From positions 1 to 30,294 of IMG/VR virus record IMGVR_UViG_3300042905_000506: a stretch of 30,294 bases of DNA. One strand, 5' to 3'. The first letter of the stretch is position 1. Each line of letters begins with the position of its first letter. A model generated the notes under the pieces. That model made no database searches. It was given only the letters and a program-made list of their open reading frames with translations, and had not been told where the DNA came from. This DNA is from a virus. This document shows positions 1,060-30,294 of the stretch, one piece after another. Made by a program: the position numbers and the translations under genes.

Positions 1060-1437
1060 TCATTCAGATGTGTAAACTATCTTCTTGATTCCAGACTTTT
1101 TAATTTGTTCATAGCATCGCCAACATGGTCTGCTATTTCTATCTTGGCCTCTCTTGTTTACTCTGGCCACATAAATAGTAGCGCCACGAACATCCCCAGC
1201 CTTCTTGATTGCATCTGCCTCTGCATGAACAGAACAGTGAGTCTTGATATGTTCGCTAGATACTACGGTTGGATGATTTCTTTCTTTGTTAACACCAGTT
1301 GACAGAACTCTGCCACCTCTAACAATTACTGCTCCGTGCTTCATTCTACACTCAGACTGGCTGGCGAGATAAGAAGCAACGGAAAGATATGACTGGTCGC
1401 GCTTAGATATGGCGACCTGCTCCTTTGATAGCCACAA
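1060..1437 (-). CDS. Cytidine/deoxycytidylate deaminase-family protein
   Basis: This 125-aa protein has the zinc-dependent deaminase signature: HAE (H71, E73) and PCWRC (C105, C108). Those residues ligate zinc and supply the general acid/base glutamate. The family deaminates cytidine or dCMP; in phages the usual member is dCMP deaminase, which feeds dUMP to thymidylate synthesis. At 125 aa it is on the short side. No ATG lies upstream of the conserved core, so I use the TTG at 1437, which follows AGGAG closely and lies 6 nt after the preceding stop. The exact substrate (dCMP, cytidine or a nucleic acid) cannot be told from sequence. Confidence 0.88.
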   Translation of the reverse strand: MWLSKEQVAISKRDQSYLSVASYLASQSECRMKHGAVIVRGGRVLSTGVNKERNHPTVVSSEHIKTHCSVHAEADAIKKAGDVRGATIYVARVNKRGQDRNSRPCWRCYEQIKKSGIKKIVYTSE

Positions 1438-1829: not shown

Positions 1830-3845
1830 CTACCAGGCTATATAGTATAGCGGAACGGTGGTTCCTATAGCAAGTGCTGTCCCAGCATTGTTTTCAACAT
1901 ATCCTCTTGCATATCCAGCAGATGCTGCGCCATTAATGCCAGTATTTATCTGTCCAACATAAAGTCTTGATGCCGTCCCCCTACCCATAAAAATTATTCC
2001 ATTAAGAGAAGTAGATCTACTTCCAGTAACATCAATGACGAAAAATCCAGCAACAGAAGATGTTGATACGCTCAGATTTTCTGCGCTGTATCGCGCTACT
2101 CTAGAAACGAATTCTGTGGTGGCTAATTGAGTGTTGCTTGTTCCTGCTGCCTGCGTTGTTGAAGTTGCAGCAACTGTTCCGCCAAACGATGCTGCTCCGG
2201 TAATATATGCACCACCAACGACATGTAGTGCGGAAGCAGGAGTAGATGTGCCTATACCAACCTCATTGTTTGCCGAATCTACAAACAGCGTTCCACTATC
2301 TACATTTAGATTTCCAGTTATTGCTGTACTTCCAGTAACAGATAAGAATGATGCAGTAGTAAGACCAGTAGAAGTGTTGACACCAAAAATCTCAGTAGAT
2401 GCAGTTAACTGACTTGATCTAACAGAAAATGTTGGAGATATAAGTAAGTCTGACCATACAGAGGTGTTGCTATCGGAAATGAATAGTCGTAGGCCATTGT
2501 TTCCAGATGAATTAGGAGTGAAAAGTCTAATTGTTCTAGAGCCAGATGTAGTTCCTAATTGTATCGCTGCACCGCTCGCTGTTCCAGCGTATGTCGCATC
2601 TCCTAGACCAAGATATAGCCCATTAGCCCCTCCTAAAATTGCTGAGCCAGAAAAGAGAGTGCCGCTTGCTGAAAGATTTCTAGTGACCAGCGCCCCTCCA
2701 ACAACATGGAGTGCAGAGGCTGGGGACGTTGTAAGAATACCTACTTCATTATTAGTTGCATCTACAAAAAGTGTTCCCGAATCTACATTGAGGCTACCAC
2801 TTACAGTTAGGTTACTCAAAGTTCCTAAAGAGGTCAGGCTGGAATTAACGATGGCTGCGGGGAGCGTTGTGCCAGTGATTAGGGAGGCGTTAATACTTGA
2901 CGCCGTTCCAGCGTGCGATGCGACGGTGGCAGATGCCACAGTTCCAGTTACTAGAGATCCAGCAATAGACGATGCTGTTCCAGCATGAGTGGCCACAGTT
3001 GCGCTACTAGATATTGTTGAACTTGCTGATCTATTAGCAAATCCAACAGATGCTGTAGTTATGAATGCTTGTACGGCGCTGGCCTGCCATATTGATGCAG
3101 AACTGTTATAGAATAAAAAATCATTATTATTTGGATTTGATGCAGAAACATTGTGTAATTCAAATAACTCTAAGCCATTTTGTGGGCTAAGAAAAATTTG
3201 CCCAGCATTGGCACTTTGCTTGATTGAATAGCCTAGAAAAACCAAATGATTTGGTGCGTATATTTTTTCAGATGTGAACTCTCCTGGCGTGGAAGAAAGC
3301 CACAATTGAGTTCCAGGTGCATAAGATGCTGTATTAACATCTTGTATTATACCGAACGTAGCAACAAAACCTTGAGCACCATTATTAATCTGCTCAGCCG
3401 TCATTCCTAAAACTTTGGTTGACGTAGACTCAGCGTTCGATGTTGCCTTCGTTATTGAAGGTCGCTGACCTTGAGCGCCAGAAATATATACTACCGTTCC
3501 CTTCGGCATGGCAGATCCAGTGCCATTGTAACAATATGCAACCTGCTCCTGACCGATATCAAGGTTGACATTTCCACCTTTTAGACCAACAGTAAGAGTT
3601 CCTTCACCATCCGACCATTGTAATCTTGCTACCGATGCACCAGAAATAGGATTAAGAGAAAAGTCTATGTAATCAGCACTCAGACCGTAGGAGGCAGTAA
3701 CATTGTGAAGACTATTCCACTGTGAATTAAAATATAGCCTCAGCACATTGGATGCAGTATTGAAATACATATTTCCAATTGATGCTGAGGACGGATCGCT
3801 TGTCGCACTATGTAGTCCAACTGGCGTTAAAAATCTTCTAGACAT
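1830..3845 (-). CDS. Tail fibre protein, paralogue with shared C-terminal tip
   Basis: A 671-aa Ser/Thr/Ala/Gly-rich fibre protein. The N-terminus (MSRRFLTPVGLHS, then NMYFNTASNVLRLYFNSQW) resembles that of the next fibre gene, suggesting a common attachment domain. The middle carries modules of the form LFVDATNNEVGI followed by TPASALHVVGGA, typical of beta-helical trimeric phage fibres. The last ~115 residues (from FGGTVAATSTTQAAG to YYIAW) closely match the end of the fibre at 28191-30284. The gene begins 3 bp after the stop of the upstream fibre gene. Its likely role is host-surface recognition. Confidence 0.88.
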   Translation of the reverse strand: MSRRFLTPVGLHSATSDPSSASIGNMYFNTASNVLRLYFNSQWNSLHNVTASYGLSADYIDFSLNPISGASVARLQWSDGEGTLTVGLKGGNVNLDIGQEQVAYCYNGTGSAMPKGTVVYISGAQGQRPSITKATSNAESTSTKVLGMTAEQINNGAQGFVATFGIIQDVNTASYAPGTQLWLSSTPGEFTSEKIYAPNHLVFLGYSIKQSANAGQIFLSPQNGLELFELHNVSASNPNNNDFLFYNSSASIWQASAVQAFITTASVGFANRSASSTISSSATVATHAGTASSIAGSLVTGTVASATVASHAGTASSINASLITGTTLPAAIVNSSLTSLGTLSNLTVSGSLNVDSGTLFVDATNNEVGILTTSPASALHVVGGALVTRNLSASGTLFSGSAILGGANGLYLGLGDATYAGTASGAAIQLGTTSGSRTIRLFTPNSSGNNGLRLFISDSNTSVWSDLLISPTFSVRSSQLTASTEIFGVNTSTGLTTASFLSVTGSTAITGNLNVDSGTLFVDSANNEVGIGTSTPASALHVVGGAYITGAASFGGTVAATSTTQAAGTSNTQLATTEFVSRVARYSAENLSVSTSSVAGFFVIDVTGSRSTSLNGIIFMGRGTASRLYVGQINTGINGAASAGYARGYVENNAGTALAIGTTVPLYYIAW

Positions 3846-5675: not shown

Positions 5676-5686
5676 TTTTCCTCCTG

Positions 5687-5910
5687 TGGAGCAGGGCGGA
5701 ATTGAACCGCCGTGCCACTAGTTTATTTCTAGTCCTAACGTTGTGTTGCTGTAACTACTATTGTACTACGAATGCAATCTTCTGTTCCCACGCGATTGCG
5801 GCGCGGCACTATCATGCTGCTAGTGCGAAGGCGTTTTGTGAGTTGCCGTTTATTTTGTTTGTTAGTTTTGTGCGACTAGAAACTTGCTAGGGTCGAAACC
5901 TTTCTGCCCC
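5687..5910 (-). ncRNA. ssrA: Transfer-messenger RNA (short form, 224 nt)
   Basis: The 5' end GGGGCAG pairs with CTGCTCC at the 3' end to form a 7-bp acceptor stem. It has the conserved D-loop-like TTTCGAC and a T-arm GGCGG-TTCAATT-CCGCC, with discriminator A at 5687; CCA is not encoded. A tag reading frame at 5847-5812 encodes GNSQNAFALAA, then tandem stops TGA TAG; ALAA is the classic proteolysis tag end and AFALAA is seen in actinobacterial tags. Upstream is UAAAC, similar to the usual UAGUC-type context. A pseudoknot PK1 is plausible (CTAG/CTAG with AGTTT/AAACT). Bacterial tmRNAs are usually 350-400 nt, so pseudoknots must be lost here; one perfect GCAATC/GATTGC stem remains. The first 49 nt overlap the glycosyltransferase gene. 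Confidence 0.88.
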
Positions 5911-7067
5911 GTGCTTTGTGGCTTAGGCTTTGGCTTAATCCTATTTTTTTGTGCATTCATGTGAATAAGTTCAATAGCCTCAGACCACTTGTACTTCATC
6001 ATAAATAGACTTAAGTTTTTTACAACTACTTCGTAGTTCTTAATTCTTTCCTGTTGTCTAACTTCTGGATCTCTAAGTTCTTCTAAATGCCTGATCCAGT
6101 CGCGTGGCTTCTTGGCTATCCTACCACATCCCATTTCTGCAAGATCGCGGTATTCCTGGGTGTCTGATGCAACGAATGGAATTCCGCTCAGGGCATACTC
6201 CATACCCTTTAGACAACTCTTTGCTTCATTGAATGGATTATTGGTCAGTGGTACGATGCCGATATCGATAGGCATGAACAAGTTTCCATAGTATTGTGGT
6301 CTTACTCCGACATATCCAGACATTCTATCTGGATTAAAGCCTGCCTCTTCAGCGAACCACTTCTCTCTTGTTAGAACAATGCCAGAATGATGAAACTTAA
6401 GATCATATTTTTCTAGAAATGTTTTTAGTGGTGCTCCAACTTCTTTAATATCTTCAACTCTCCATAGCATGATTCCTACCCAGCCAATTGTTGGCTTCCA
6501 GCCAGAGAAATCTTGCCTAAAATAGAAAGTTTCTGGAATCAGTGAATTCGGAACCCTATAAACATTATTATTGTGTCTTAAAGACTTTTGCTCAAGAAAC
6601 TTAGTGCTGGCGATAATGCCATCAACCTTTGAATAATTATTGATAAGAAAGTTTCTATTGTTGTCTGGAGAATTCTTAGGGTCGGTGGTATGGAATGCCA
6701 TATTGTCTGGTGGAAGTTGTTCAAAGTGATCATCGGTATCAATGATAACAGTCTGTCCGTACTCTCTAGCCTTGGTGATATATTGCTCAGAATCCTTGTG
6801 CATAAATAGTTTTAGAACAATTGCGTCAAGTTTATCAAAACACTCATCATATTTTGTTACGATTCCAGCCTTTCCAAACTTTAGTTTTTCAACTGGAGGA
6901 ACTATTACAAACCCCTCGCCGTCTTTCCATCCTATTTCTCCTACGCCAACCTCATGACCAATTTCTCTAAGACCATGAGCAGGAATCATGCATCTCATGT
7001 GGGTGCAGCCACCAGGTTGAGCCTGAACGTGGTCACCCCAGTCGGTAGACCCAAAACCAATCCGCAT
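5862..7067 (-). CDS. GT-B fold glycosyltransferase
   Basis: A 401-aa protein with the layout of family-4-like (GT-B) glycosyltransferases: an N-terminal glycine-rich start (MRIGFGSTDWGD), an IIDTDDH segment near residue 108, and the C-terminal donor-binding half. In that half, DIGIVPL (268-274), FNEAKSCLKGMEY (279-291) and GIPFVAS (295-301) form the typical sugar-nucleotide site. It probably transfers a sugar to phage DNA, a virion protein or the host surface; the acceptor is unknown. I start at ATG 7067 (AAAGG, 6 nt spacing) because the longer frame runs through tRNA-Met. Its last ~15 codons lie inside the tmRNA 5' domain. Confidence 0.87.
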   Translation of the reverse strand: MRIGFGSTDWGDHVQAQPGGCTHMRCMIPAHGLREIGHEVGVGEIGWKDGEGFVIVPPVEKLKFGKAGIVTKYDECFDKLDAIVLKLFMHKDSEQYITKAREYGQTVIIDTDDHFEQLPPDNMAFHTTDPKNSPDNNRNFLINNYSKVDGIIASTKFLEQKSLRHNNNVYRVPNSLIPETFYFRQDFSGWKPTIGWVGIMLWRVEDIKEVGAPLKTFLEKYDLKFHHSGIVLTREKWFAEEAGFNPDRMSGYVGVRPQYYGNLFMPIDIGIVPLTNNPFNEAKSCLKGMEYALSGIPFVASDTQEYRDLAEMGCGRIAKKPRDWIRHLEELRDPEVRQQERIKNYEVVVKNLSLFMMKYKWSEAIELIHMNAQKNRIKPKPKPQSTGQKGFDPSKFLVAQN

Positions 7068-7100
7068 GTTGTACCTTTCTGTTTGCACATATTGTACCAG

Positions 7101-7172
7101 TGTCTCCATCAAGAATCGAACTTGAACTAAGGGATTATGAGGCCCTTGTGATAACCATTTCACTATGGAGAC
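7101..7172 (-). tRNA. tRNA-Met(CAT)
   Basis: A 72-nt cloverleaf: acceptor GTCTCCA/TGGAGAC, D-stem GTGA/TCAC, anticodon loop CTCATAA, T-arm TCAAG-TTCGATT-CTTGA, discriminator A. The anticodon stem has a C31-U39 mismatch. With a CAT anticodon this could be elongator Met or a lysidine-modified Ile tRNA; a paired first base argues against initiator. CCA is not encoded. Confidence 0.85.
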
Positions 7173-7915: not shown

Positions 7916-7935
7916 TAAAAATACAGCCCAGTGAG

Positions 7936-8006
7936 TGGAGAATAACGGAGTCGAACCGATGACTGTTCCTTGCAAAAGAACTGTTATACCATTTAACTAA
8001 TTCCCC
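7936..8006 (-). tRNA. tRNA-Ala(TGC)
   Basis: Cloverleaf of 71 nt: acceptor GGGGAAT/ATTCTCC with one G-U pair, D-stem GTTA/TAAC, anticodon loop TTTGCAA in stem GTTCT/GGAAC, T-loop TTCGACT. One T-T mismatch lies in the T-stem. Discriminator A; no encoded CCA. Confidence 0.88.
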
Positions 8007-8010
8007 TTAG

Positions 8011-8082
8011 TGGTCCCTGACGGATTCGAACCGCCGACCTTTTCGGTGTAAACGAAACACTCTACCGCTGAGTTAAAGGACC
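8011..8082 (-). tRNA. tRNA-Val(TAC)
   Basis: Cloverleaf of 72 nt: acceptor GGTCCTT/AGGGACC, anticodon stem TTTCG/CGAAA with loop TTTACAC, T-arm with TTCGAAT, discriminator A. It sits 4 nt upstream of tRNA-Ala. Confidence 0.92.
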
Positions 8083-8087
8083 GTGCG

Positions 8088-8161
8088 AGCCTCAGATCGG
8101 ATTCGAACCGATGACTTGCCGCTTACAAGGCGGCTACTCTGGCCAACTGAGTTACTGAGGC
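8088..8161 (-). tRNA. tRNA-Thr(TGT)
   Basis: Cloverleaf of 74 nt: acceptor GCCTCAG/CTGAGGC, D-stem ACTC/GAGT, anticodon stem GCCGC/GCGGC with loop CTTGTAA, T-arm ATCGG-TTCGAAT-CCGAT, discriminator T. Confidence 0.93.
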
Positions 8162-8165
8162 TTGG

Positions 8166-8236
8166 AGCGAACGATGGGAATCGAACCCACACCGTCTGCT
8201 TGGAAGGCAGAGGCACTACCATTATGCAACGTTCGC
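8166..8236 (-). tRNA. tRNA-Gly(TCC)
   Basis: Cloverleaf of 71 nt: acceptor GCGAACG/CGTTCGC, anticodon stem TCTGC/GCAGA with loop CTTCCAA, T-arm GTGGG-TTCGATT-CCCAT, discriminator T. Confidence 0.93.
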
Positions 8237-8240
8237 CTAG

Positions 8241-8313
8241 CGCCCTTGGCTGGATTCGAACCAGCGACTAATGGATTAGAAGTCCACTACTCTATCCTCT
8301 GAGTTACAAGGGC
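8241..8313 (-). tRNA. tRNA-Arg(TCT)
   Basis: Cloverleaf of 73 nt: acceptor GCCCTTG/CAAGGGC, D-stem ACTC/GAGT, anticodon stem GTGGA/TCCAT with loop CTTCTAA, T-arm GCTGG-TTCGAAT-CCAGC, discriminator G. It reads AGA/AGG, which are frequent in these genes. Confidence 0.93.
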
Positions 8314-8317
8314 TTGG

Positions 8318-8392
8318 TTGGGCGGGTGGGATTTGAACCCACGATACACGGCTTATAAGACCGCTTCCAAAACCAGACTAGGATACCGCCCA
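8318..8392 (-). tRNA. tRNA-Ile(TAT)
   Basis: Cloverleaf of 75 nt: acceptor TGGGCGG/CCGCCCA, anticodon stem GCGGT/GCCGT (two G-U pairs) with loop CTTATAA, variable GTATC, T-arm GTGGG-TTCAAAT-CCCAC, discriminator A. TAT reads ATA directly. Most bacteria instead read ATA with a lysidine-modified CAT tRNA, so this is an unusual isoacceptor. Confidence 0.85.
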
Positions 8393-8643: not shown

Positions 8644-8689
8644 AGCACCTCCTTGTGTATATGACTATTTTATCATTGTTGATATTACG

Positions 8690-8760
8690 CTGCGGGACTA
8701 GGATTCGAACCTAGACAAACAGTTCCAAAGACTGTCGTGCTGCCATTACACAATCCCGCA
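8690..8760 (-). tRNA. tRNA-Gln(TTG)
   Basis: Cloverleaf of 71 nt: acceptor TGCGGGA/TCCCGCA, D-stem GTGT/GCAC, anticodon stem ACAGT/ACTGT with loop CTTTGGA, T-arm CTAGG-TTCGAAT-CCTAG, discriminator G. Its 5' base directly abuts the stop codon of the 61-aa gene. Confidence 0.94.
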
Positions 8761-9022: not shown

Positions 9023-9023
9023 G

Positions 9024-9097
9024 TCGGAATGAAAGGATTTGAACCTTCGACCCCTTGCTCCCAAAGCAAGTGCGCTACCAAACTGCGCCACATTCCG
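9024..9097 (-). tRNA. tRNA-Pro(TGG)
   Basis: Cloverleaf of 74 nt: acceptor CGGAATG/CATTCCG, D-stem GCGC/GCGC, anticodon stem CTTGC/GCAAG with loop TTTGGGA, T-arm GAAGG-TTCAAAT-CCTTT, discriminator A. Confidence 0.94.
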
Positions 9098-9185: not shown

Positions 9186-9566
9186 CTATGTTGTACTATC
9201 TTTTCTAAAGGCAAATGGAGATTCCTGCCACATCTTTTCCATTCTCTTTGCTCTTTCTACGATTGTTCTGGACCATGAAAATCCAGCGTCGCCGCCCCAT
9301 GCTTCCCACATAATTTTTCCATTAGATGGATATCCAGGTTCACCAGGGCTGAATCCTTGACCCTGCTTATCAACCTCGTGTCTGGAAAAATAAGAATACA
9401 TTCTTTTCACCGTATCAAGCGAAAGAGGCTCTTTATTGGCAAGTTGTCGTGCGCGGGTCCATCCTACTTGTGTGCCCGCACCCTTTGCCTTACCTTCCTC
9501 TTTCCACTTAATTGCGCGGCGGCCAGCGGCTACCATTGCATCAGTTGGTGTATATGTCTCTGCCAT
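9186..9566 (-). CDS. Conserved phage protein (KRMYSYFSRHEVDK / WGGDAG domain)
   Basis: The core has ATQVGW-like and RARQLAN segments, then LSLDTVKRMYSYFSRHEVDK and a C-terminal YPSNGKIMWEAWGGDAG followed by W. This is a compact domain widespread in phages, often fused or adjacent to head and packaging proteins; its biochemical role is unsettled. I place the start at ATG 9566, 4 nt after the upstream stop, giving 126 aa. The ATG at 9599 is an alternative that would overlap the methyltransferase by 29 nt; neither has a strong ribosome-binding site. Confidence 0.72.
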   Translation of the reverse strand: MAETYTPTDAMVAAGRRAIKWKEEGKAKGAGTQVGWTRARQLANKEPLSLDTVKRMYSYFSRHEVDKQGQGFSPGEPGYPSNGKIMWEAWGGDAGFSWSRTIVERAKRMEKMWQESPFAFRKDSTT

Positions 9567-9570
9567 AGGT

Positions 9571-10107
9571 CTATTGTACCACTTTTGAGCAATAGTCATA
9601 CATCACAATTCCAGATGCGGTGCCGACATTTAAAGATCTTACCGAACCATATTGTTGAATATATACTATGTCATCGGCAAAGTTTAGTACGTCATGCGAG
9701 AGGCCCCGCCCCTCTTCACCAAAAACCATAACAGACTTAGGAGACCAAGAATATTCATTGACTACCTTTGCATCTCCCACATTATCAATGGCAACGATAC
9801 GATAGCCATCGTTCCTAAGACTGATAAGAACGTCCATAATGTTGTCGGCATGATGTACATGCTCGTAGTGATGCGTTCCAACAGCCCCGCGTTTGTCCCA
9901 TCTTTTGATTCCACAACGAATCACCCTCTTCCCAAGAAATGCATTGCAATTTCTTACGACATTAGAAAAATTAAAATCTCCATTTATTCTTTCTACCACC
10001 ACAACAAACTCATTGCGCTTAGCATCTAAGTTGGCGCGGATAGCATCATCATGCCAGTATTTGTAAAAATCCGTAACGTTTCTAGTATCTGTTGTCAACT
10101 GCTCCAC
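9571..10107 (-). CDS. SpoU/TrmH-family RNA 2'-O-methyltransferase
   Basis: This 178-aa protein has the three SPOUT motifs: motif 1 NFSNVVRNCNAF (N48, R52), motif 2 VFGEEGRGLS (128-137) and motif 3 QQYGSVRSLNVGTASG (151-166). These form the knotted S-adenosylmethionine site and methylate ribose 2'-OH of tRNA or rRNA. The size fits a minimal TrmH/TrmL-type enzyme. Nine tRNAs and a tmRNA lie just downstream, so a phage tRNA is a natural substrate; that is inference. The GTG at 10107 is used as start; TTG 10098 would give a 17-nt overlap with the upstream gene and a better spaced GGTGGAG. Confidence 0.88.
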   Translation of the reverse strand: MEQLTTDTRNVTDFYKYWHDDAIRANLDAKRNEFVVVVERINGDFNFSNVVRNCNAFLGKRVIRCGIKRWDKRGAVGTHHYEHVHHADNIMDVLISLRNDGYRIVAIDNVGDAKVVNEYSWSPKSVMVFGEEGRGLSHDVLNFADDIVYIQQYGSVRSLNVGTASGIVMYDYCSKVVQ

Positions 10108-10423
10108 CCATAGTATAGATGAAATACATCATCGATTTCTCTTCTTCTGACAGTTCATCAGAAGAGTACCATAGGTCTGACTTGTCAGTCAAATAAATTA
10201 ATGTCTGTCCATCATCAGTAATCCTAACATCAATAAAGTTTTTAAACCATAGTGATGAGATTAAATCTGATTCAGTTATTCTTATTTGCTTGACCAACTC
10301 TTCTTGCTCTTTGTAAAACTTTTTGGTAAAGCGATACACTGGCTCACCAAGAATATTTTGTGATACTTCCACAATATATTCATTGTGGACTAGCCAATCA
10401 ATAATTTTATCTGGAAGATCCAT
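10082..10423 (-). CDS. Hypothetical protein near terminase (113 aa)
   Basis: A 113-aa protein whose ATG 10423 shares a base with the upstream TAA (TAATG). The first half (MDLPDKIIDWLVHNEYIVEV, then GEPVYRFTKKFYKE) reads like a winged-helix domain, followed by a helical segment and an acidic stretch. No catalytic motif is visible. It is translationally coupled to the HNH protein. Confidence 0.65.
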   Translation of the reverse strand: MDLPDKIIDWLVHNEYIVEVSQNILGEPVYRFTKKFYKEQEELVKQIRITESDLISSLWFKNFIDVRITDDGQTLIYLTDKSDLWYSSDELSEEEKSMMYFIYTMGGAVDNRY

Positions 10424-10902
10424 TAGCCCGCCCTTCTAGCAAAACCTAAAATACAAGCATAGCAATGATATATTTTGTGATCACACTCATTTGACTTACG
10501 CTTGGCCCACCCAGGAAATGTGCGTGGCTGCGGGTCTGAATGGCATACCGAACACATTTCTCCTGGTAGAAGAATTCTACCAGACATACAAACGCTACAT
10601 ACTTTTGGGCGGTTACGTTTCCTAACCCTTTTACGGTCTACAAAATTTGATCTAGGTGGTGGGTCTGGAATGGTCCCATCTGCAAGAGGTATTCTGTCGC
10701 TCTTCCATAGATTGCATTGCTTGTGAGCCAATCTTAAATTAGAGATATTCCACGTTCCGCCTTTAGAAAGTGGAATCCAGTGGTCTAGTGTTCTTTTCTC
10801 TTTCTTGCCAAATTTGTTTTTACAGATAAAACACAGATCGCCGTCTCTTTCTATCAGCATCTGTATTGCTTCCTGTTTACCCTGCCAAGTTATTTCAATC
10901 AT
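10423..10902 (-). CDS. HNH endonuclease, packaging-associated type
   Basis: A 159-aa HNH nuclease: zinc pair C24-x2-C27, then LDHWIPLSKGG (D40, H41), SNLRLAHKQCN (N55, H60, C63), the beta-beta-alpha metal finger. The C-terminus has additional zinc-ribbon cysteines (C102, C105, C117, C120 and a C/H cluster near 140-150). Its ATG 10902 overlaps the large terminase stop by one base (TAATG). HNH proteins next to terminase genes are known packaging partners in cos phages (established for HK97-like phages), so that role is likely, but a homing enzyme is possible. Confidence 0.88.
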   Translation of the reverse strand: MIEITWQGKQEAIQMLIERDGDLCFICKNKFGKKEKRTLDHWIPLSKGGTWNISNLRLAHKQCNLWKSDRIPLADGTIPDPPPRSNFVDRKRVRKRNRPKVCSVCMSGRILLPGEMCSVCHSDPQPRTFPGWAKRKSNECDHKIYHCYACILGFARRAG

Positions 10903-12686
10903 TAGATCATCCCTATGTGCCAATCATTTCTAGGATCATTCATAACCAGAGGTCTAATAATATTTTCAGGATTGGGGGCGTTCGCCTGCTCAATCCTTTT
11001 ATCTCTAATTAGTTGCTTATATGTGTGAACTTCTATCTCTACTTCTTTGGCTTCTCTCTTAGTGCCAATAATTGAATTATAAAGAGCACCACATACAGCA
11101 TCAGAGAGGTCTTTAGAACCTTTTCTTGGATGGTCAACCTTATCACGAATAATTCTTAGTTGCAAGAGTTCGTCTATCAATAGTGGTATTCTGGGGCCGA
11201 CAATTCTTTCTTCTCCTACAAGCATTGCCATGTCATCATAGTGCTTCTTCCCAACGGAAAGAGTCTCTGTGTTGACTCCAATCATTCTGAGTTCAGACTG
11301 GATATCATGAGACTGCCATCTATCGAATGTCGCCTTTTTGATATTAAATCCACGACTTCTAAGATCGACTATGAATTGCTTAACTTCTGAGAAGTCTACT
11401 GATTTGTCTGAGGTTGGTGTCCACCATCTAACACAATCTACCATAGCAATAGGACTAACAACTTCGTGGTTTAAGAATGATTTGATATGCACCCATCTAT
11501 CGATATGTGCCATAGCGACAGCACAATGGTCATGCTTTTGTGCAAGGTCAACGTGAATAAAATATTCTTTATCCTCCTGCGGCTGGAAGAAATCATAGAA
11601 TCTTCCGAACTCATCTACACCGTTATAAGGCTGATTAAAGCATGTTTCTATCTTGTCCCTTGATTTAAAGAAAGCATCTACTGATTCTGGCGGCATACAT
11701 GCAAAACGAGATAGCGCATCTACTGGATTTGTAAAGAACGCCCTCTTAAAATCTTCAATTGTTCTGGTTGGATTGACCTCCCACGTTGGCCTCTTTAGCG
11801 CAAACATCCTTGGAAATCTATAGGCATTAATACAATCTTCTTCCCACTGAATTATAAATTTGTTTTCTTGTATCGAATCTTCCAGTTCATCATCAATCTT
11901 AAATTCGTGCTCTCTGACTATGACATCTTTATCGGCTATAACAGAATCGTATCTTTGCTGGATAAAGTCCCCCTTAAATCTTGGGAATGAAAGTAGAATA
12001 ACCTTCCCATAGTCTGGAAATCTAGAGTCTACTGAGGCCCTATACATATCATAGATTGCTTGTGCAGTTTTAGACTGATCGTTGCCACTTGTTGACTCCA
12101 TACTAAATCCAGAGATCTCATCAAGAATCACACAGATTACGTTGTATCCCTCCCAAGATTCTCTTTCAGAGTGGCCTGAATGACATGTTACTGACTTATC
12201 AAATGCCACGGCCTGTGCGGTAACACTATACTTACCCTGAAACCAAGGAGAATCCTCAATGCGCTTACGAAATCCCTTGAAGAAAACATTCTTAGCCTGA
12301 TCAGCATTGATAGCAATATTAATAATGTCGATTGCATCTCCAGGCGGCTTGCCATAATACTTTGCGGGATCTTTTAGGCAGAGCAGGAGATACACCATAT
12401 ACGCAACCGCAACAGTTGACATGTAATCTTTTCCAGATCCCTTGCCAAGTTGTAGGATCACTTCATTACAGGTTTGCTTATATCGTTTTAGACCGCCGTC
12501 TTCTCCAAAAACTCTGATCAAAGTGTCTTTCTTATAGATCTGTGTCATAGCCTTGATGCATTGATATTGGTGTTCTGAAAGGGGCGGCAGGCTCAGATAC
12601 CTATCGCTAGTAGTAAATTCTTCTATGGATACTGGAATCTCATCGAATTCATCACCATCAAGTGCTTGTAAAAAATCATCAAACAC
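10902..12686 (-). CDS. terL: Terminase large subunit
   Basis: This 594-aa protein is the packaging motor. The ATPase half has Walker A GKGSGKD (81-87) and Walker B VICVILDE (183-190). The RNase H-like nuclease half has acidic residues in HVDLAQ (D380), ATFDRW (D455) and GSKDLSDAV (D526/D529). It threads DNA into proheads and cuts it. The start is GTG 12686, sharing one base with the TAG stop of the small subunit (TAGTG) and preceded by GAGGG. Length is ordinary for the family. It is followed directly by the HNH protein. Confidence 0.96.
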   Translation of the reverse strand: MFDDFLQALDGDEFDEIPVSIEEFTTSDRYLSLPPLSEHQYQCIKAMTQIYKKDTLIRVFGEDGGLKRYKQTCNEVILQLGKGSGKDYMSTVAVAYMVYLLLCLKDPAKYYGKPPGDAIDIINIAINADQAKNVFFKGFRKRIEDSPWFQGKYSVTAQAVAFDKSVTCHSGHSERESWEGYNVICVILDEISGFSMESTSGNDQSKTAQAIYDMYRASVDSRFPDYGKVILLSFPRFKGDFIQQRYDSVIADKDVIVREHEFKIDDELEDSIQENKFIIQWEEDCINAYRFPRMFALKRPTWEVNPTRTIEDFKRAFFTNPVDALSRFACMPPESVDAFFKSRDKIETCFNQPYNGVDEFGRFYDFFQPQEDKEYFIHVDLAQKHDHCAVAMAHIDRWVHIKSFLNHEVVSPIAMVDCVRWWTPTSDKSVDFSEVKQFIVDLRSRGFNIKKATFDRWQSHDIQSELRMIGVNTETLSVGKKHYDDMAMLVGEERIVGPRIPLLIDELLQLRIIRDKVDHPRKGSKDLSDAVCGALYNSIIGTKREAKEVEIEVHTYKQLIRDKRIEQANAPNPENIIRPLVMNDPRNDWHIGMI

Positions 12687-22147: not shown

Positions 22148-23101
22148 TTATACCGATATTTCATTATTGGAACAAGCATTTTTCCAGAGCGTCATAATCT
22201 CTAAATCGGACAGGTCTCCTATGTCTTTAGCCTCTCCGACATCCATAATAGTTATTTGCTTGTTAGTCAGTTTTTCACTAACTTTTGTTACCATCTTTTG
22301 TCCAGCACTATCTTTGTCTGGGCAAAGCATAATCTTATTAGCATACTTATTTAACAGAAGAATCTGATTTCCTGATATATTAGATCCAAGAGTTGCCACG
22401 GACGGAATTCCAAGTTGCCAAAGACGGATGCTATCGAAGGTAGATTCTACAACTACAATATCGTTTAACTTAGATCTATTTAGATTGAAAAGAACATGCT
22501 TGCGTGGCAAATTAGTTGAGTTCTTAAACGACTTGCCCTCAATAGACCTGGCCACCATTCCAACGTACATTCCGTACTGATCTTGAATAGGAACGGTAAC
22601 CATGTTCTGCTTGGCAGAATAACCCAACTTCATTTCCATAACCGCCTCCATATAGATCTTTCTACCCCGAAAATAATCTATGGCTTTTTGGTTATCTAAA
22701 AGACTTTCATGAAGCCTGAGAATGATTGATGAGTCAAATTCCTCTAATTGGTCATCTGGAAGTTTGCTCAGTTCCATATTCACCACACTTAGTATGTCGG
22801 TGGTGGCAGACGCAGAATGAATTACCCTTGACGCCTCAAAGAAGTTTCTCTTAGTTGTCTTCATAACTAGATCCGTCAGGCTGCCGCTTTCTCCGCATGA
22901 GAAGCAAATGTATAGCCCGCTAGTCTTGTCTATTTCACATGCAGGAGTATTTACATTGTAGTGAAATGGACAGAAGATCAGATAGTGTGTATCAATCTCG
23001 CCGCCCACGCGAACATCGCACGAACGTAGAACTGATGCTATTTGTTCGTCTGAGTAGAACTCTTTGGTATTAGATTGTTTAGTGAAACGCCGTGAAAACA
23101 T
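22148..23101 (-). CDS. DnaG-type primase
   Basis: A 317-aa primase: an N-terminal zinc site FCPFH (C44, H47) with CFSC (C66, C69), and a TOPRIM domain with E219 (VVVESTFDS) and D262-x-D264 (CPDKDSAGQ). It synthesises RNA primers and has no C-terminal helicase-binding domain, being shorter than bacterial DnaG. ATG 23101 has AAAGG 4 nt upstream. It follows the helicase in the same operon. Confidence 0.92.
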   Translation of the reverse strand: MFSRRFTKQSNTKEFYSDEQIASVLRSCDVRVGGEIDTHYLIFCPFHYNVNTPACEIDKTSGLYICFSCGESGSLTDLVMKTTKRNFFEASRVIHSASATTDILSVVNMELSKLPDDQLEEFDSSIILRLHESLLDNQKAIDYFRGRKIYMEAVMEMKLGYSAKQNMVTVPIQDQYGMYVGMVARSIEGKSFKNSTNLPRKHVLFNLNRSKLNDIVVVESTFDSIRLWQLGIPSVATLGSNISGNQILLLNKYANKIMLCPDKDSAGQKMVTKVSEKLTNKQITIMDVGEAKDIGDLSDLEIMTLWKNACSNNEISV

Positions 23102-23310
23102 TTGGCCTTTGCCTTTCCTATATAAACCCCATACATGGACAGTAGAAAACTGTACACGCCCTTATCATATTGTAGACTGAACGCAGGCTCTATGTCAAAG
23201 TGCGGCACATAGCCCTTTGAGTTCATAACATCAACCAAGTGTTTTTCATATCTTTGTCGGATTGATGGAATGTTTGAGTCAGTATCGATTTGTCCATCGA
23301 TTTGAAACAT
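23038..23310 (-). CDS. Small hypothetical between helicase and primase (90 aa)
   Basis: A 90-aa protein beginning MFQIDGQIDTDSNIPSIRQR, followed by GYVPHFDIEPAFSLQYDKG and VYSFLLSMYGVYIGKAKAKC. Its position between DnaB and primase, with 64 nt overlap into primase, suggests a replication role, but no motif is recognised. I use ATG 23310 rather than GTG 23346, because a promoter candidate just upstream would make the GTG leaderless. Confidence 0.6.
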   Translation of the reverse strand: MFQIDGQIDTDSNIPSIRQRYEKHLVDVMNSKGYVPHFDIEPAFSLQYDKGVYSFLLSMYGVYIGKAKAKCFHGVSLNNLIPKSSTQTNK

Positions 23311-23352
23311 TACTATTCTTTTATGTCCAACAAAAAGATTATCCACATGGTT

Positions 23353-23361
23353 ATTATAGCA
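23353..23361 (-). promoter_or_regulatory. Extended -10 promoter candidate before primase genes
   Basis: TGCTATAAT lies in the short gap after the helicase stop. A transcript would start near 23346, giving about 36 nt of leader to ATG 23310. No -35 is evident. The sequence matches the candidates at 5187-5195 and 13500-13508 exactly. Confidence 0.45.
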
Positions 23362-23363
23362 AC

Positions 23364-24581
23364 TTATAGGTCGTTGTATTCCTTGAATCTGCCAGAGTCA
23401 AAGTCTGCTACTAGAATGAAGTCTCCCAGAAAGCCATTTCTATTCTTCCTAAATGCAACCTCAATAGCGTCACTATTCTGTTTCCTGCCAAGAGCAAGAA
23501 CGAAGTCTGCATCGTAAGCAATCTGCTTTGACCACGCCACCTGACCCAACTGTGGAACAGATTCCAAGTCAGATGCGTCGTCTGGGGTGGCAGACGCAAT
23601 TGCAATAACTGGAATCTCCTGAGTTATAGCGAGCATCTTAAGTTCTCTAGAAAGATTCTTAATCTTTACAGTCTCATTACTGGTAGTGCCAGCGTTGTCA
23701 CTCATCAACTGTAGGTAGTCAATGAATACTATATCTGGCTTGTATTGCTCAATCTTTGAGGCAATAAGATTCGGCGTTGTCTCTGAGCCAATCTCATTTG
23801 AGATGATTTTAAATGGTGGCTTATTCTTGAGTTCGCGGTCTGCCCAATCACGAAAGTCACTTTCATCCAGCCTGCCAGCACTCATTGCACGGTGAGAAAA
23901 TATTCCATTGCCAAGAATGGTGAAAACTCTATTACGAACCTCATGCTCAGTCATCTCAAGACTGATAATCATAGGTGTTCTACCTACACGCCAAGCCTGC
24001 ACAGCAAAGTAAAGTGCAAGCCAAGATTTACCAATTGCTGGGTATGCAAGCAAGACACCCAACTGTCCCTTGGATATTCCCATTGGAAGGCAGGCATCAA
24101 ATGCTGCGATATTGGTCTTGATACCGACGCATCCATTCTCAGCAGACTCCTTTAGTTTTTCAAAGTAGGAGACTGCATCATCAATATCAGTTACATCGAT
24201 ATCGCGGGCCTTTGAAGTAACCCTGGCAATAGAAGAAATACTGCTAGTAAGTTCTTGTAGCGCCCGTGCTGATTCATTATTTTGCAGAAGCGTAGCGGCA
24301 GTTCGCACAGCATTACGCATAGATTCATCAAGATACGACGACCGCAGTTTGTCAATGTGATAGATTGTGGGGCCAGCATCGACTGGATCAAAATCTCTAA
24401 ATCTAGTAGCAACCAAGTCTGAATCTGGAACCTGCTTGGTCTGAGAGTAGTAGTCTTTGATAAAGCCCCAAACATCAGCACAGTGCGTAATAAGATGGTC
24501 TGCACCATTATCATACATGGTGTGGATATCCTTATTTTTACACAGCGCAGAGATAACTTCTACTTCATCACTGTACGCCAT
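23364..24581 (-). CDS. dnaB: DnaB-type replicative helicase
   Basis: A 405-aa RecF4-family helicase. The Walker A is the variant AYPAIGKSW (179-187; G184, K185, S186), the catalytic-type Glu is in SLEM (E209), Walker B is DIVFIDYLQLM (283-293) and the arginine finger is in AFRKNRNG (376-383). The N-terminal domain (~1-140) is divergent. It unwinds ahead of the phage polymerase. ATG 24581 overlaps the upstream gene by 14 nt, a putative loader. Confidence 0.93.
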   Translation of the reverse strand: MAYSDEVEVISALCKNKDIHTMYDNGADHLITHCADVWGFIKDYYSQTKQVPDSDLVATRFRDFDPVDAGPTIYHIDKLRSSYLDESMRNAVRTAATLLQNNESARALQELTSSISSIARVTSKARDIDVTDIDDAVSYFEKLKESAENGCVGIKTNIAAFDACLPMGISKGQLGVLLAYPAIGKSWLALYFAVQAWRVGRTPMIISLEMTEHEVRNRVFTILGNGIFSHRAMSAGRLDESDFRDWADRELKNKPPFKIISNEIGSETTPNLIASKIEQYKPDIVFIDYLQLMSDNAGTTSNETVKIKNLSRELKMLAITQEIPVIAIASATPDDASDLESVPQLGQVAWSKQIAYDADFVLALGRKQNSDAIEVAFRKNRNGFLGDFILVADFDSGRFKEYNDL

Positions 24582-24903
24582 TCAAATACTCCCTAGCCAA
24601 TTCTTGTGTCTTGCGGCGGCGTTCTGCTCTCAGTTCGTCGTCTCGCATCTTCTCGCTCATGATACTCTTAAGTTGTTCGAAGTTAAAGAAAAAGTAGGAT
24701 AGTGGATGTCCATCCTTATCTGTCTTGAAATAATACTCAAGGCACTGGAGAACAGTGTCGTATCCAAAATCCTCTATGAGAGAAGAGACCGCCCACTTTT
24801 CCTTATATTTGTTGATCTCAACCTTGCTTCCATACTTTTCAAGATACATGGCTTCGTACTTGCCAATCACGGCAAATTCTAATTTGAAGGACTTACTTGC
24901 CAT
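24568..24903 (-). CDS. Possible helicase loader or partner (111 aa)
   Basis: A 111-aa protein starting MASKSFKLEFAVIGKYEAMY, with a helical middle (SSLIEDFGYDTVLQCLEYYF) and a strongly charged coiled C-terminus rich in E and R. It is encoded immediately before DnaB and overlaps it by 14 nt. Genes of this size and place are often loaders or replisome organisers in phages; that is inference from synteny. Confidence 0.6.
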   Translation of the reverse strand: MASKSFKLEFAVIGKYEAMYLEKYGSKVEINKYKEKWAVSSLIEDFGYDTVLQCLEYYFKTDKDGHPLSYFFFNFEQLKSIMSEKMRDDELRAERRRKTQELAREYLNGVQ

Positions 24904-25102
24904 TCAGATCTTCCTCTATGTCCTGTACCTTTTCAACCAACTTCTTTTCTACATATGCGTATACTCGCTCAAATGCGTCATCTACACTTTCCTTGTCACG
25001 AACAAAGTCTTCTATGCCAACATCAACATGGATGCTCTCATAGTTTCCAAGGTTCTTGACGAACTTAAGACCGACGCGAACTCTTGTCGGATTCGACTCC
25101 AT
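24893..25102 (-). CDS. Conserved small phage protein (69 aa)
   Basis: A 69-aa protein, MESNPTRVRVGLKFVKNLGN, then HVDVGIEDFVRDKESVDDAF and an acidic-basic helical C-terminus. ATG 25102 has a GAGG just upstream. This pattern (a beta sheet followed by a long charged helix) recurs next to replication genes in phages, but the role is not established. Confidence 0.65.
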   Translation of the reverse strand: MESNPTRVRVGLKFVKNLGNYESIHVDVGIEDFVRDKESVDDAFERVYAYVEKKLVEKVQDIEEDLNGK

Positions 25103-28190: not shown

Positions 28191-30294
28191 CTACCATGCA
28201 ATATATGAAAGTGGAACAGAGTTTCCTAGGGCCACCGCGACACCGGCATTCGTTTCAACATAGCCACGAACATATCCAGGAGATGCTGCACCATTAATTC
28301 CAGTATCAAGCGCGGCCACTATTAGTCTTGGTGCCGTTCCTCTAGATGTGGCAACAAATCCATTTATAGAATTTCCTGGATTTACTGCTAAAACAAAGAA
28401 TCCTGCAACAGAAGATGTATTAGGGCTTGGTGCTCCATTATACTTAACCATTCTGGAAACAAATGCTGTTGTGGCAAGAGATGTGCTATCATCTCCAGAT
28501 GCTTGTGTTGTAGAGGTTCCAGTAATTGTGCCACCAAAAGATGCTGCTCCAGTAACATATGCTCCACCAACGACATGCAATGCTGAAGCGGGAGTAGAAG
28601 TGGCAATTCCTAGTCTTTGTGTGCTAGTTAAAATTGCTGCTAGTGTCGATGTGCCAGCAGAATTTCCTGTGTAGAATTGAAGACTGGACGGTATCCCACC
28701 AGCCACGCTCTGTCCAGCACTTTCTGATGTAATGTATGCTGAGTTGGTGGCTGTACCAGCAATACTTGGACCCTGGAACATAATCGTACCAAGATCCATT
28801 CCAGAAGTAGCAGAAGCAGAGGCACCAAAGTTTTTTCTAAATAAGAAATATGCTGCATTGTCTAAACTGTTTGTATTTTCTAAAATTAATTGAGGAGCGA
28901 AGTTTGATGAATTTGATATTGTTACGTTACCAGATCCATTAATTGTTCCTCCAACTGCAAGATTGGAAACTATGCTTGCCGTTGTTCCAACGTAAAGTGA
29001 CGATATGGCGCTAGCAGCGCCTACGGAACGGAACGTTCCTCCAACTGCAAGATTGGAAACTATACTTGCTGTTGTTCCAACGTAAAAAGATGACAGGGCG
29101 CTAGCAGCGCCACCAATATAAAGTGACGACAAGGCGCTTGCAGCGCCCACGGAACGGAACGTTCCTCCAACTGCAAGATTAGAAACAATACTCGCTGTTG
29201 TTCCAACATATAGTGTTGAATTTGCACTAGCATTTCCAACTAGAACCGCGTCCCCTCCAACTCTTAATGTAGAGGATATGCTTGCTGTTCCGCCCATAGT
29301 TGTATTTCCACTAATGCTGGCGGTGCCAATAACTGTTAGTGGATTAGTTGGGGATGTAGTTCCTATGCCTACTCTATTATTAGGAGAATCTACAAACAGT
29401 GTTCCACCGTCTACATTAAGACCTGCGTCAATAAGCACCCCAGAAATTCCAGCAACGTGAAGTGCAGAGGCTGGTGTGACAGTTCCTATTCCTACTTCAT
29501 TGTTTGTTGCGTCTACGAATAAGGTGTTAGTATCAACGGTTAGATTTCCATATAAAGTTGTATTAAGATTTTGATCTATTCTTAGACCCAAGTCATTATT
29601 CCCATTTGCTATATAAACATTATAGTTCGACACAGCGCCGTCATAATTTATAGAAACCACATCAATATTATTTGACAGCGAGGCCAGAGCATCAACCCCT
29701 ATAGCAATATTTCTTGATCCTGTTGTACTTGCTTTTAGGGCATTTTTTCCAATAGCAATGTTTTGAGAGACAGTGTTAGAATAAAGGGCAGATGCACCAA
29801 TTGCAATATTATCCTCGCCACTGGTGTTACTCTGTAATGCCCCAAATCCAACTCTAAAATTAGTATTGTTGCCACTACCAATTCCAACGTTAGTGCCATT
29901 AATGAGTGAATCTCCAATAGACGCTGAAATAATAGACGCAGAATCAAATACCGGATCAACCGCCTTAAGTATTCCAGTATATGTTAAGGAAAATGGAGAA
30001 GTTAATGGATCGTTACCAACCCATATAGAATATGTTGGCCGATTGGCACTAAGATTTAATAGACCAAATCTGGTTAATCTTATTGTTCCGTTGCTTTCTA
30101 AAATAACACTAGCACCAGCAGTGCCACCTATAATTGAACTTGCAGTTAGTTGCCAGCCACCTAAAGAGCCAACTGATGCTGTGATGTTTTGAGCATTAAC
30201 CGATCCTGTGAATTGACCAGAATTAGCGGTAATATCGCCAGTTATAGAGGCACCAGTTGCAGTTAAAAATCCTGTGCCAGACACTCTGAATGGG
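28191..30294 (-). CDS. Tail fibre protein, 5' end beyond right edge
   Basis: At least 697 aa of a beta-rich fibre; the frame is open to the right edge, so the N-terminus is missing. Parts: a YadA-head-like stretch with NIAIGASALYSN and NIAIGKNALKAS; then modules LFVDATNNEVGIGT and TPASALHV; then ~30-aa repeats (TASIVSNLAVGGTF, then RSVGAASAISSLYVG) encoded by near-identical DNA; then a C-terminal tip ending LSYIAW that matches the 671-aa fibre at 1830-3845. It is the likely receptor-binding or side fibre. Confidence 0.88.
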   Translation of the reverse strand, partial: PFRVSGTGFLTATGASITGDITANSGQFTGSVNAQNITASVGSLGGWQLTASSIIGGTAGASVILESNGTIRLTRFGLLNLSANRPTYSIWVGNDPLTSPFSLTYTGILKAVDPVFDSASIISASIGDSLINGTNVGIGSGNNTNFRVGFGALQSNTSGEDNIAIGASALYSNTVSQNIAIGKNALKASTTGSRNIAIGVDALASLSNNIDVVSINYDGAVSNYNVYIANGNNDLGLRIDQNLNTTLYGNLTVDTNTLFVDATNNEVGIGTVTPASALHVAGISGVLIDAGLNVDGGTLFVDSPNNRVGIGTTSPTNPLTVIGTASISGNTTMGGTASISSTLRVGGDAVLVGNASANSTLYVGTTASIVSNLAVGGTFRSVGAASALSSLYIGGAASALSSFYVGTTASIVSNLAVGGTFRSVGAASAISSLYVGTTASIVSNLAVGGTINGSGNVTISNSSNFAPQLILENTNSLDNAAYFLFRKNFGASASATSGMDLGTIMFQGPSIAGTATNSAYITSESAGQSVAGGIPSSLQFYTGNSAGTSTLAAILTSTQRLGIATSTPASALHVVGGAYVTGAASFGGTITGTSTTQASGDDSTSLATTAFVSRMVKYNGAPSPNTSSVAGFFVLAVNPGNSINGFVATSRGTAPRLIVAALDTGINGAASPGYVRGYVETNAGVAVALGNSVPLSYIAW
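28945..29220 (-). repeat. Direct repeats inside the tail fibre gene
   Basis: The sequence GTTCCTCCAACTGCAAGATT recurs at 28945, 29035 and 29161, spaced 90 and 126 nt (90 + 36). Between copies, a GGCGCT-AGC-AGCGCC hairpin (or close variant) occurs three times. The repeats encode 30-aa fibre modules, and the 36-nt difference is one partial module, so copy number can change by slippage or recombination. Confidence 0.9.

Follow-up and report, generated by a model that had tools for sequence, protein, structure and literature searches.

A SpoU-family methyltransferase encoded upstream of phage tRNA genes is a putative tRNA 2'-O-methyltransferase

Organization of the locus

The window, i.e. the whole stretch of DNA analysed here, comprises the 30,294 bases of an IMG/VR virus record. 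An open reading frame on its minus strand (9571-10107) encodes a SpoU-family ribose 2'-O-methyltransferase (MTase) of 178 aa when read from the GTG at 10107. A 97%-identical relative (L004) lacks the upstream GTG and ATG codons, and the TTG equivalent to position 10098 of the window is its only possible start. Since this relative permits no other start, the true start of the MTase is probably the TTG at 10098, giving a CDS at 9571-10098 and a protein of 175 aa. At its 3' end, the gene overlaps an ORF of no assigned function that matches phrog_2859 (9186-9599, minus strand) and separates the MTase from the first tRNA gene. Nine tRNA genes follow on the MTase strand, running from 9097 down to 7100. 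The first of the cluster, tRNA-Pro(TGG) (9023-9097), is separated from the MTase by 474 bp, and is followed by tRNA-Gln(TTG) (8689-8760), six tandem tRNAs for Ile(TAT), Arg(TCT), Gly(TCC), Thr(TGT), Val(TAC) and Ala(TGC) (7935-8392), and tRNA-Met(CAT) (7100-7172). A tmRNA gene with the tag GNSQNAFALAA (5686-5910, minus strand) was detected with 43.5 Rfam bits (E 3e-16), slightly below the gathering score of 47 bits. The first-pass annotation had placed a SpoU methyltransferase at the head of an RNA island, and this arrangement was confirmed: the gene, with an intact domain, lies on the same strand as, and upstream of, the nine tRNAs and the tmRNA. A glycosyltransferase-like ORF runs at its 3' end over the first 49 nt of the tmRNA gene (5862-5910); the real start of this ORF is probably near 7067, away from tRNA-Met.

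Just upstream of the MTase is a small ORF with no function assigned (10082-10423, minus strand), which overlaps the MTase ORF by 26 nt if the latter is read from its GTG, followed by genes for an HNH endonuclease (10423-10923, minus strand) and the terminase large subunit (10902-12686, minus strand). The terminase is about 61% identical to those of Streptomyces phages such as Gilson, and the window also encodes WhiB, RecA, DNA polymerase III alpha and DnaB helicase. Therefore, we infer that the window most likely derives from an actinobacterial phage. When nucleotide-level relatives of the window were sought among phages, only matches of tRNA size were obtained. Near the ends of the window, two long proteins (1830-3845 and 28191-30284) have repeated modules (such as GTLFVDxxNNEVGIGT) in common and C-termini that are alike; they are possibly tail fibres.

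The gene product as a SpoU-family methyltransferase

The protein matched the Pfam SpoU_methylase profile (PF00588) with an E value of 3.6e-27 and 95.6 bits against a cut-off of 29.7, over profile positions 2-142 of 142. SpoU motif 1 (N..R), motif 2 (G.E) and motif 3 (S.N) are all conserved, and residues N46, R52, G130, E132, S158 and N160 were invariant in an alignment of 49 homologues. An AF2 model, predicted from an alignment from which the isolate-phage rows were left out, had a pLDDT of 91.4. The predicted SPOUT fold resembled many SpoU structures, of tRNA and rRNA enzymes alike, with Z values of 20-23, and in the model the stretch N-terminal to the SPOUT domain is only about 30 residues long. 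The subfamily has its own conserved N-terminal segment, TRNxIDxYKYWxxDAIxADLD. By the criteria of sequence, the gene product is thus an intact SpoU-family ribose 2'-O-methyltransferase, and it would be expected to act as a dimer using S-adenosylmethionine (SAM) as the methyl donor.

Distribution of the subfamily

The MTase had no match in PHROG. A search of 50,697 phage records found clear relatives (38-40% identity) in only three phages: Trina and NiceHouse, both phages of Rhodococcus, and a single huge phage that is uncultured; further matches in phage records (H5-H15, 21-29% identity) resemble ordinary bacterial SpoU enzymes and were set aside. In IMG/VR, sequence search yielded 35 loci and alignment search 420 stretches. 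The earlier view that such enzymes are uncommon in phages therefore holds for sequenced isolates but not for environmental viruses. Gene 33 of Trina and NiceHouse, which carries the putative name 'tRNA-methyltransferase', belongs to the same subfamily (38% identity over 96% of the query). Like the window, these two genomes are rich in tRNAs (29 and 35 matches, respectively; the huge phage has 28), but unlike the window they have no tRNA gene within 10 kb of gene 33, which an RNA ligase adjoins. At these loci (L001, 11512-12057, and L002, 11660-12208), a distance of about 1 kb separates the RNA ligase (PF09414) from the MTase, and genes for phosphoribosyl transferase/nicotinate ribosyltransferase lie beyond.

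When 84,980 genomes of bacteria and archaea were scanned with a strict motif, four loci were recovered. By profile search, a homologue was present in 43 of 296 sampled genomes of Actinomycetota, the phylum of the Coriobacteriia MAG, and in one of 299 genomes of the Weissella phylum, that one being Weissella itself. These actinobacterial TrmH-like proteins belong to the same subfamily (about 117-255 bits) and are nested inside the viral diversity in the tree; their motif 3 is usually GSTRSxN, as against GSVRSLN in the phage protein. Since about 15% of the sampled actinobacterial chromosomes hold a homologue, the family is not one that goes with phage tRNAs alone. The few chromosomal loci of actinobacterial homologues that were examined had ordinary neighbours that gave no clue to function, and a literature search on Rv0380c returned nothing useful. 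In two Weissella species (L041 and L042), the chromosomal homologue lies 0.6-1.1 kb from a tmRNA gene.

Association of the MTase with tRNA genes

We scanned whole records with the Rfam tRNA model. tRNAs above the cut-off were present in all 36 long MTase-bearing virus records (about 25-137 kb). Within the first set of MTase-bearing records the figure was 37 of 38, the sole tRNA-free record being a fragment of 6.2 kb with only 280 bp beyond the MTase. The control consisted of 33 long viral records picked up with an arbitrary 14-mer; nine of these had tRNAs above the cut-off and none had the MTase. The difference gave a Fisher p of 1.7e-11, or 2.2e-9 when each 80% cluster was represented by a single record, values that overstate the independence of the data since the records are fragmentary and partly related. 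The MTase was also nearer to a tRNA than other ORFs were (mean rank 0.24 against 0.5 expected, z -4.8; 28 testable loci out of 37 clusters), and all 110 tRNAs within 2 kb of an MTase shared its strand. On two contigs of 15-18 kb (L072 and L103), no tRNA was found in the partial stretch searched. The proposed link between the gene and tRNAs is thus upheld by co-occurrence as well as by closeness across divergent clusters, and the opposite pattern, a gene often found in phages without tRNAs, was looked for and not seen. The link to tmRNA suggested at the same time was not supported: tmRNA occurred at just four MTase-bearing phage loci of those fetched, and we reject it as a general substrate.

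Two further observations were made on gene content. In 14 of the 37 clusters, a member of a dCMP/cytidine-deaminase-like family (phrog_174) lies no more than 6 kb from the MTase and tRNAs; in the window, a deaminase that also matches phrog_174 (1060-1437, minus strand) lies about 8 kb from the MTase. Another record (L271, G703; 22998-23522 and 24737-25006) has a second, partial MTase copy past the tRNA cluster, where the end of the contig cuts it.

All 17 long terminase relatives of the window carry tRNAs, and six of them carry the MTase. The 11 phages of this clade without the MTase have all kept their tRNAs, so phage tRNAs do not require it: the MTase implies tRNAs, but tRNAs do not imply the MTase. 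Such patchiness, together with the close chromosomal homologues in Actinomycetota, would suit a host-derived gene that travels as cargo with tRNA cassettes and has only a small effect for the phage, and gene clusters in phages can be inherited jointly without functional linkage. We nevertheless regard the cargo explanation as very improbable, given that the catalytic residues are invariant across copies that have diverged to 36-40% identity, and that the MTase recurs near tRNAs in many differing gene contexts.

Probable substrate and site of methylation

When the family profile was compared with the PDB, the best four matches were all Gm18 enzymes (67-80 bits), the next match scoring 46. Fold comparison likewise ranked TARBP1 (Z 22.9), T. 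thermophilus TrmH (22.0) and A. aeolicus TrmH (21.7) highest, with a margin over rRNA enzymes of just 1-2 Z. In the tree, the subfamily joined TARBP1, on a long branch, beside TrmH (95/82 support), apart from RlmB and TrmL. TrmH, the tRNA Gm18 enzyme of E. coli, T. thermophilus and A. aeolicus, and its counterpart in eukaryotes, TARBP1/Trm3, have the SpoU fold and catalytic residues in common with the phage protein, yet are only 18-25% identical to it. The phage protein further differs from TrmH in its own N-terminal segment and in scoring far under the NCBIfam TrmH equivalog cut-off (55.6 bits vs 227). Residues 16-178 of the model align to residues 6-170 of T. thermophilus TrmH (1v2x, 191 residues), where the phage protein stops; the C-terminal extension of TrmH, looked for in this structural alignment, is absent from the phage protein, as it is from TARBP1/Trm3. 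The tRNA binding of T. thermophilus TrmH depends on this extension (PMC9508554).

RlmB, which forms Gm2251 in 23S rRNA and has the SpoU domain in common with the phage protein, was by a small margin the top-ranked NCBIfam model, at 58.1 bits against a cut-off of 160. Given also that rRNA SpoU enzymes fold alike (Z about 20-21), the MTase might methylate host rRNA in the manner of RlmB, AviRb or TsnR and so alter ribosomes, its closeness to tRNAs being incidental. This appears improbable to us, as the phage protein is devoid of the N-terminal domain of RlmB (about 80 residues; PMC9508554), TsnR and AviRb, the profile scores of these enzymes lie at least 20 bits under those of the Gm18 enzymes, and the constant co-occurrence with tRNAs would be left unexplained.

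The tRNAs of the window, as folded by ARAGORN, do not discriminate between sites, because the features concerned occur together: G18G19 is present in all nine, which is common to most tRNAs and hence a weak discriminator, a pyrimidine occupies position 32 in all nine, and U34 is found in eight of nine. The last two features would also suit an enzyme that methylates the anticodon loop (position 32 or 34) and so tunes how the mostly U34 phage tRNAs, such as tRNA-Gln(UUG), decode. This isotype was the commonest nearest tRNA (9 of 33 loci) and, among terminase relatives, occurred in 14 of 20 with the MTase vs 9 of 43 without it. In Streptomyces, no enzyme is assigned to Um34 in tRNA-Gln, -Glu and -Lys (PMC12772374), and a SpoU protein predicted for position 34 acted at 32 (PMC12772374); SpoU similarity is therefore a poor guide to position. 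The isotype enrichment is, however, confounded by common ancestry and is exceeded by that of tRNA-Asn(GUU), and we treat the nearness of tRNA-Gln(UUG) as a lead and not as evidence. The scores for TrmL, the Nm34 enzyme (34.9 vs a cut-off of 190.6), and for the TrmJ/YjtD subfamily, which forms Nm32 (22.2 vs 167), were low, and TrmL and TrmJ structures ranked under TrmH by profile as well as by fold. Action in the anticodon loop thus seems rather unlikely to us, though it is the next candidate site after G18. Identity of the MTase with Streptomyces XNR_5296 was rejected, since the latter has an eL30-like N-terminal domain (PMC12772374).

A 2'-O-methyl group blocks nucleases that rely on the 2'-OH. 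The first-pass annotation had offered protection of phage tRNAs from host anticodon nucleases as a possible role, for which the methyl group would lie at or near the cleavage site. Phage tRNAs reportedly escape tRNA-targeting defences (PMC10264068, PMC11555353), and the RNA ligase near the MTase of Trina and NiceHouse is in keeping with such a role. This expected companion (PF09414) was, however, present in only one of 40 phage records searched, and pairing with RNA repair was rejected as a rule. The nearest characterised relatives act on G18, far from anticodon cleavage sites, and the anticodon-loop modifications cited promote cleavage and do not block it (PMC13191261). Because the RNA ligase is generally absent and the kinship is to Gm18 enzymes, protection from nucleases is not favoured, and we rate it as quite improbable.

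Proposed role of the enzyme

We consider the MTase to be a putative tRNA 2'-O-methyltransferase, with a probability of roughly 0.6; its site would most likely be G18, with the anticodon loop next. The association with tRNA genes and the kinship to Gm18 enzymes point to tRNA as the substrate, whereas the choice of G18 and a benefit through tRNA stability are suggested more weakly. In the proposed mechanism, this small SPOUT (SpoU) enzyme would transfer a methyl group from SAM to the ribose 2'-OH in the phage's own tRNAs, and probably in host tRNAs too during infection, most likely at G18 in the D-loop. The TrmH equivalog cut-off was passed by none of 149 actinobacterial genomes, and Gm18 was not detected in Streptomyces albidoflavus by RiboMethSeq (PMC12772374). 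In hosts that seemingly have no canonical TrmH, Gm18 would stabilise the L-shape of the phage tRNAs, which may thereby stay functional through infection. If the enzyme does make Gm18, it would supply a mark that the host may lack. The virus-enriched subfamily, found on actinobacterial chromosomes as well, may be a dedicated modifier of phage tRNAs, adding a 2'-O-methyl mark of which the host is incapable and which distinguishes or protects viral tRNAs during infection; we put this forward tentatively, as a minority possibility.

The kind of enzyme is already known, and the genes of Trina and NiceHouse are already named as tRNA-methyltransferases. Huge phages have been reported to carry tRNA-modification genes in general (PMC7162821); a description of a tRNA-linked phage SpoU family was not found in the literature searched, most subscription papers lying outside its reach. 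It has long been asked why phages carry tRNAs, and a modification enzyme that nearly always accompanies phage tRNAs offers a direct test of whether these need a viral mark. Solving the role of the MTase would also tell what an uncharacterised SpoU subfamily of actinobacteria does. On the present evidence, the MTase appears to be a means by which the virus finishes tRNAs.
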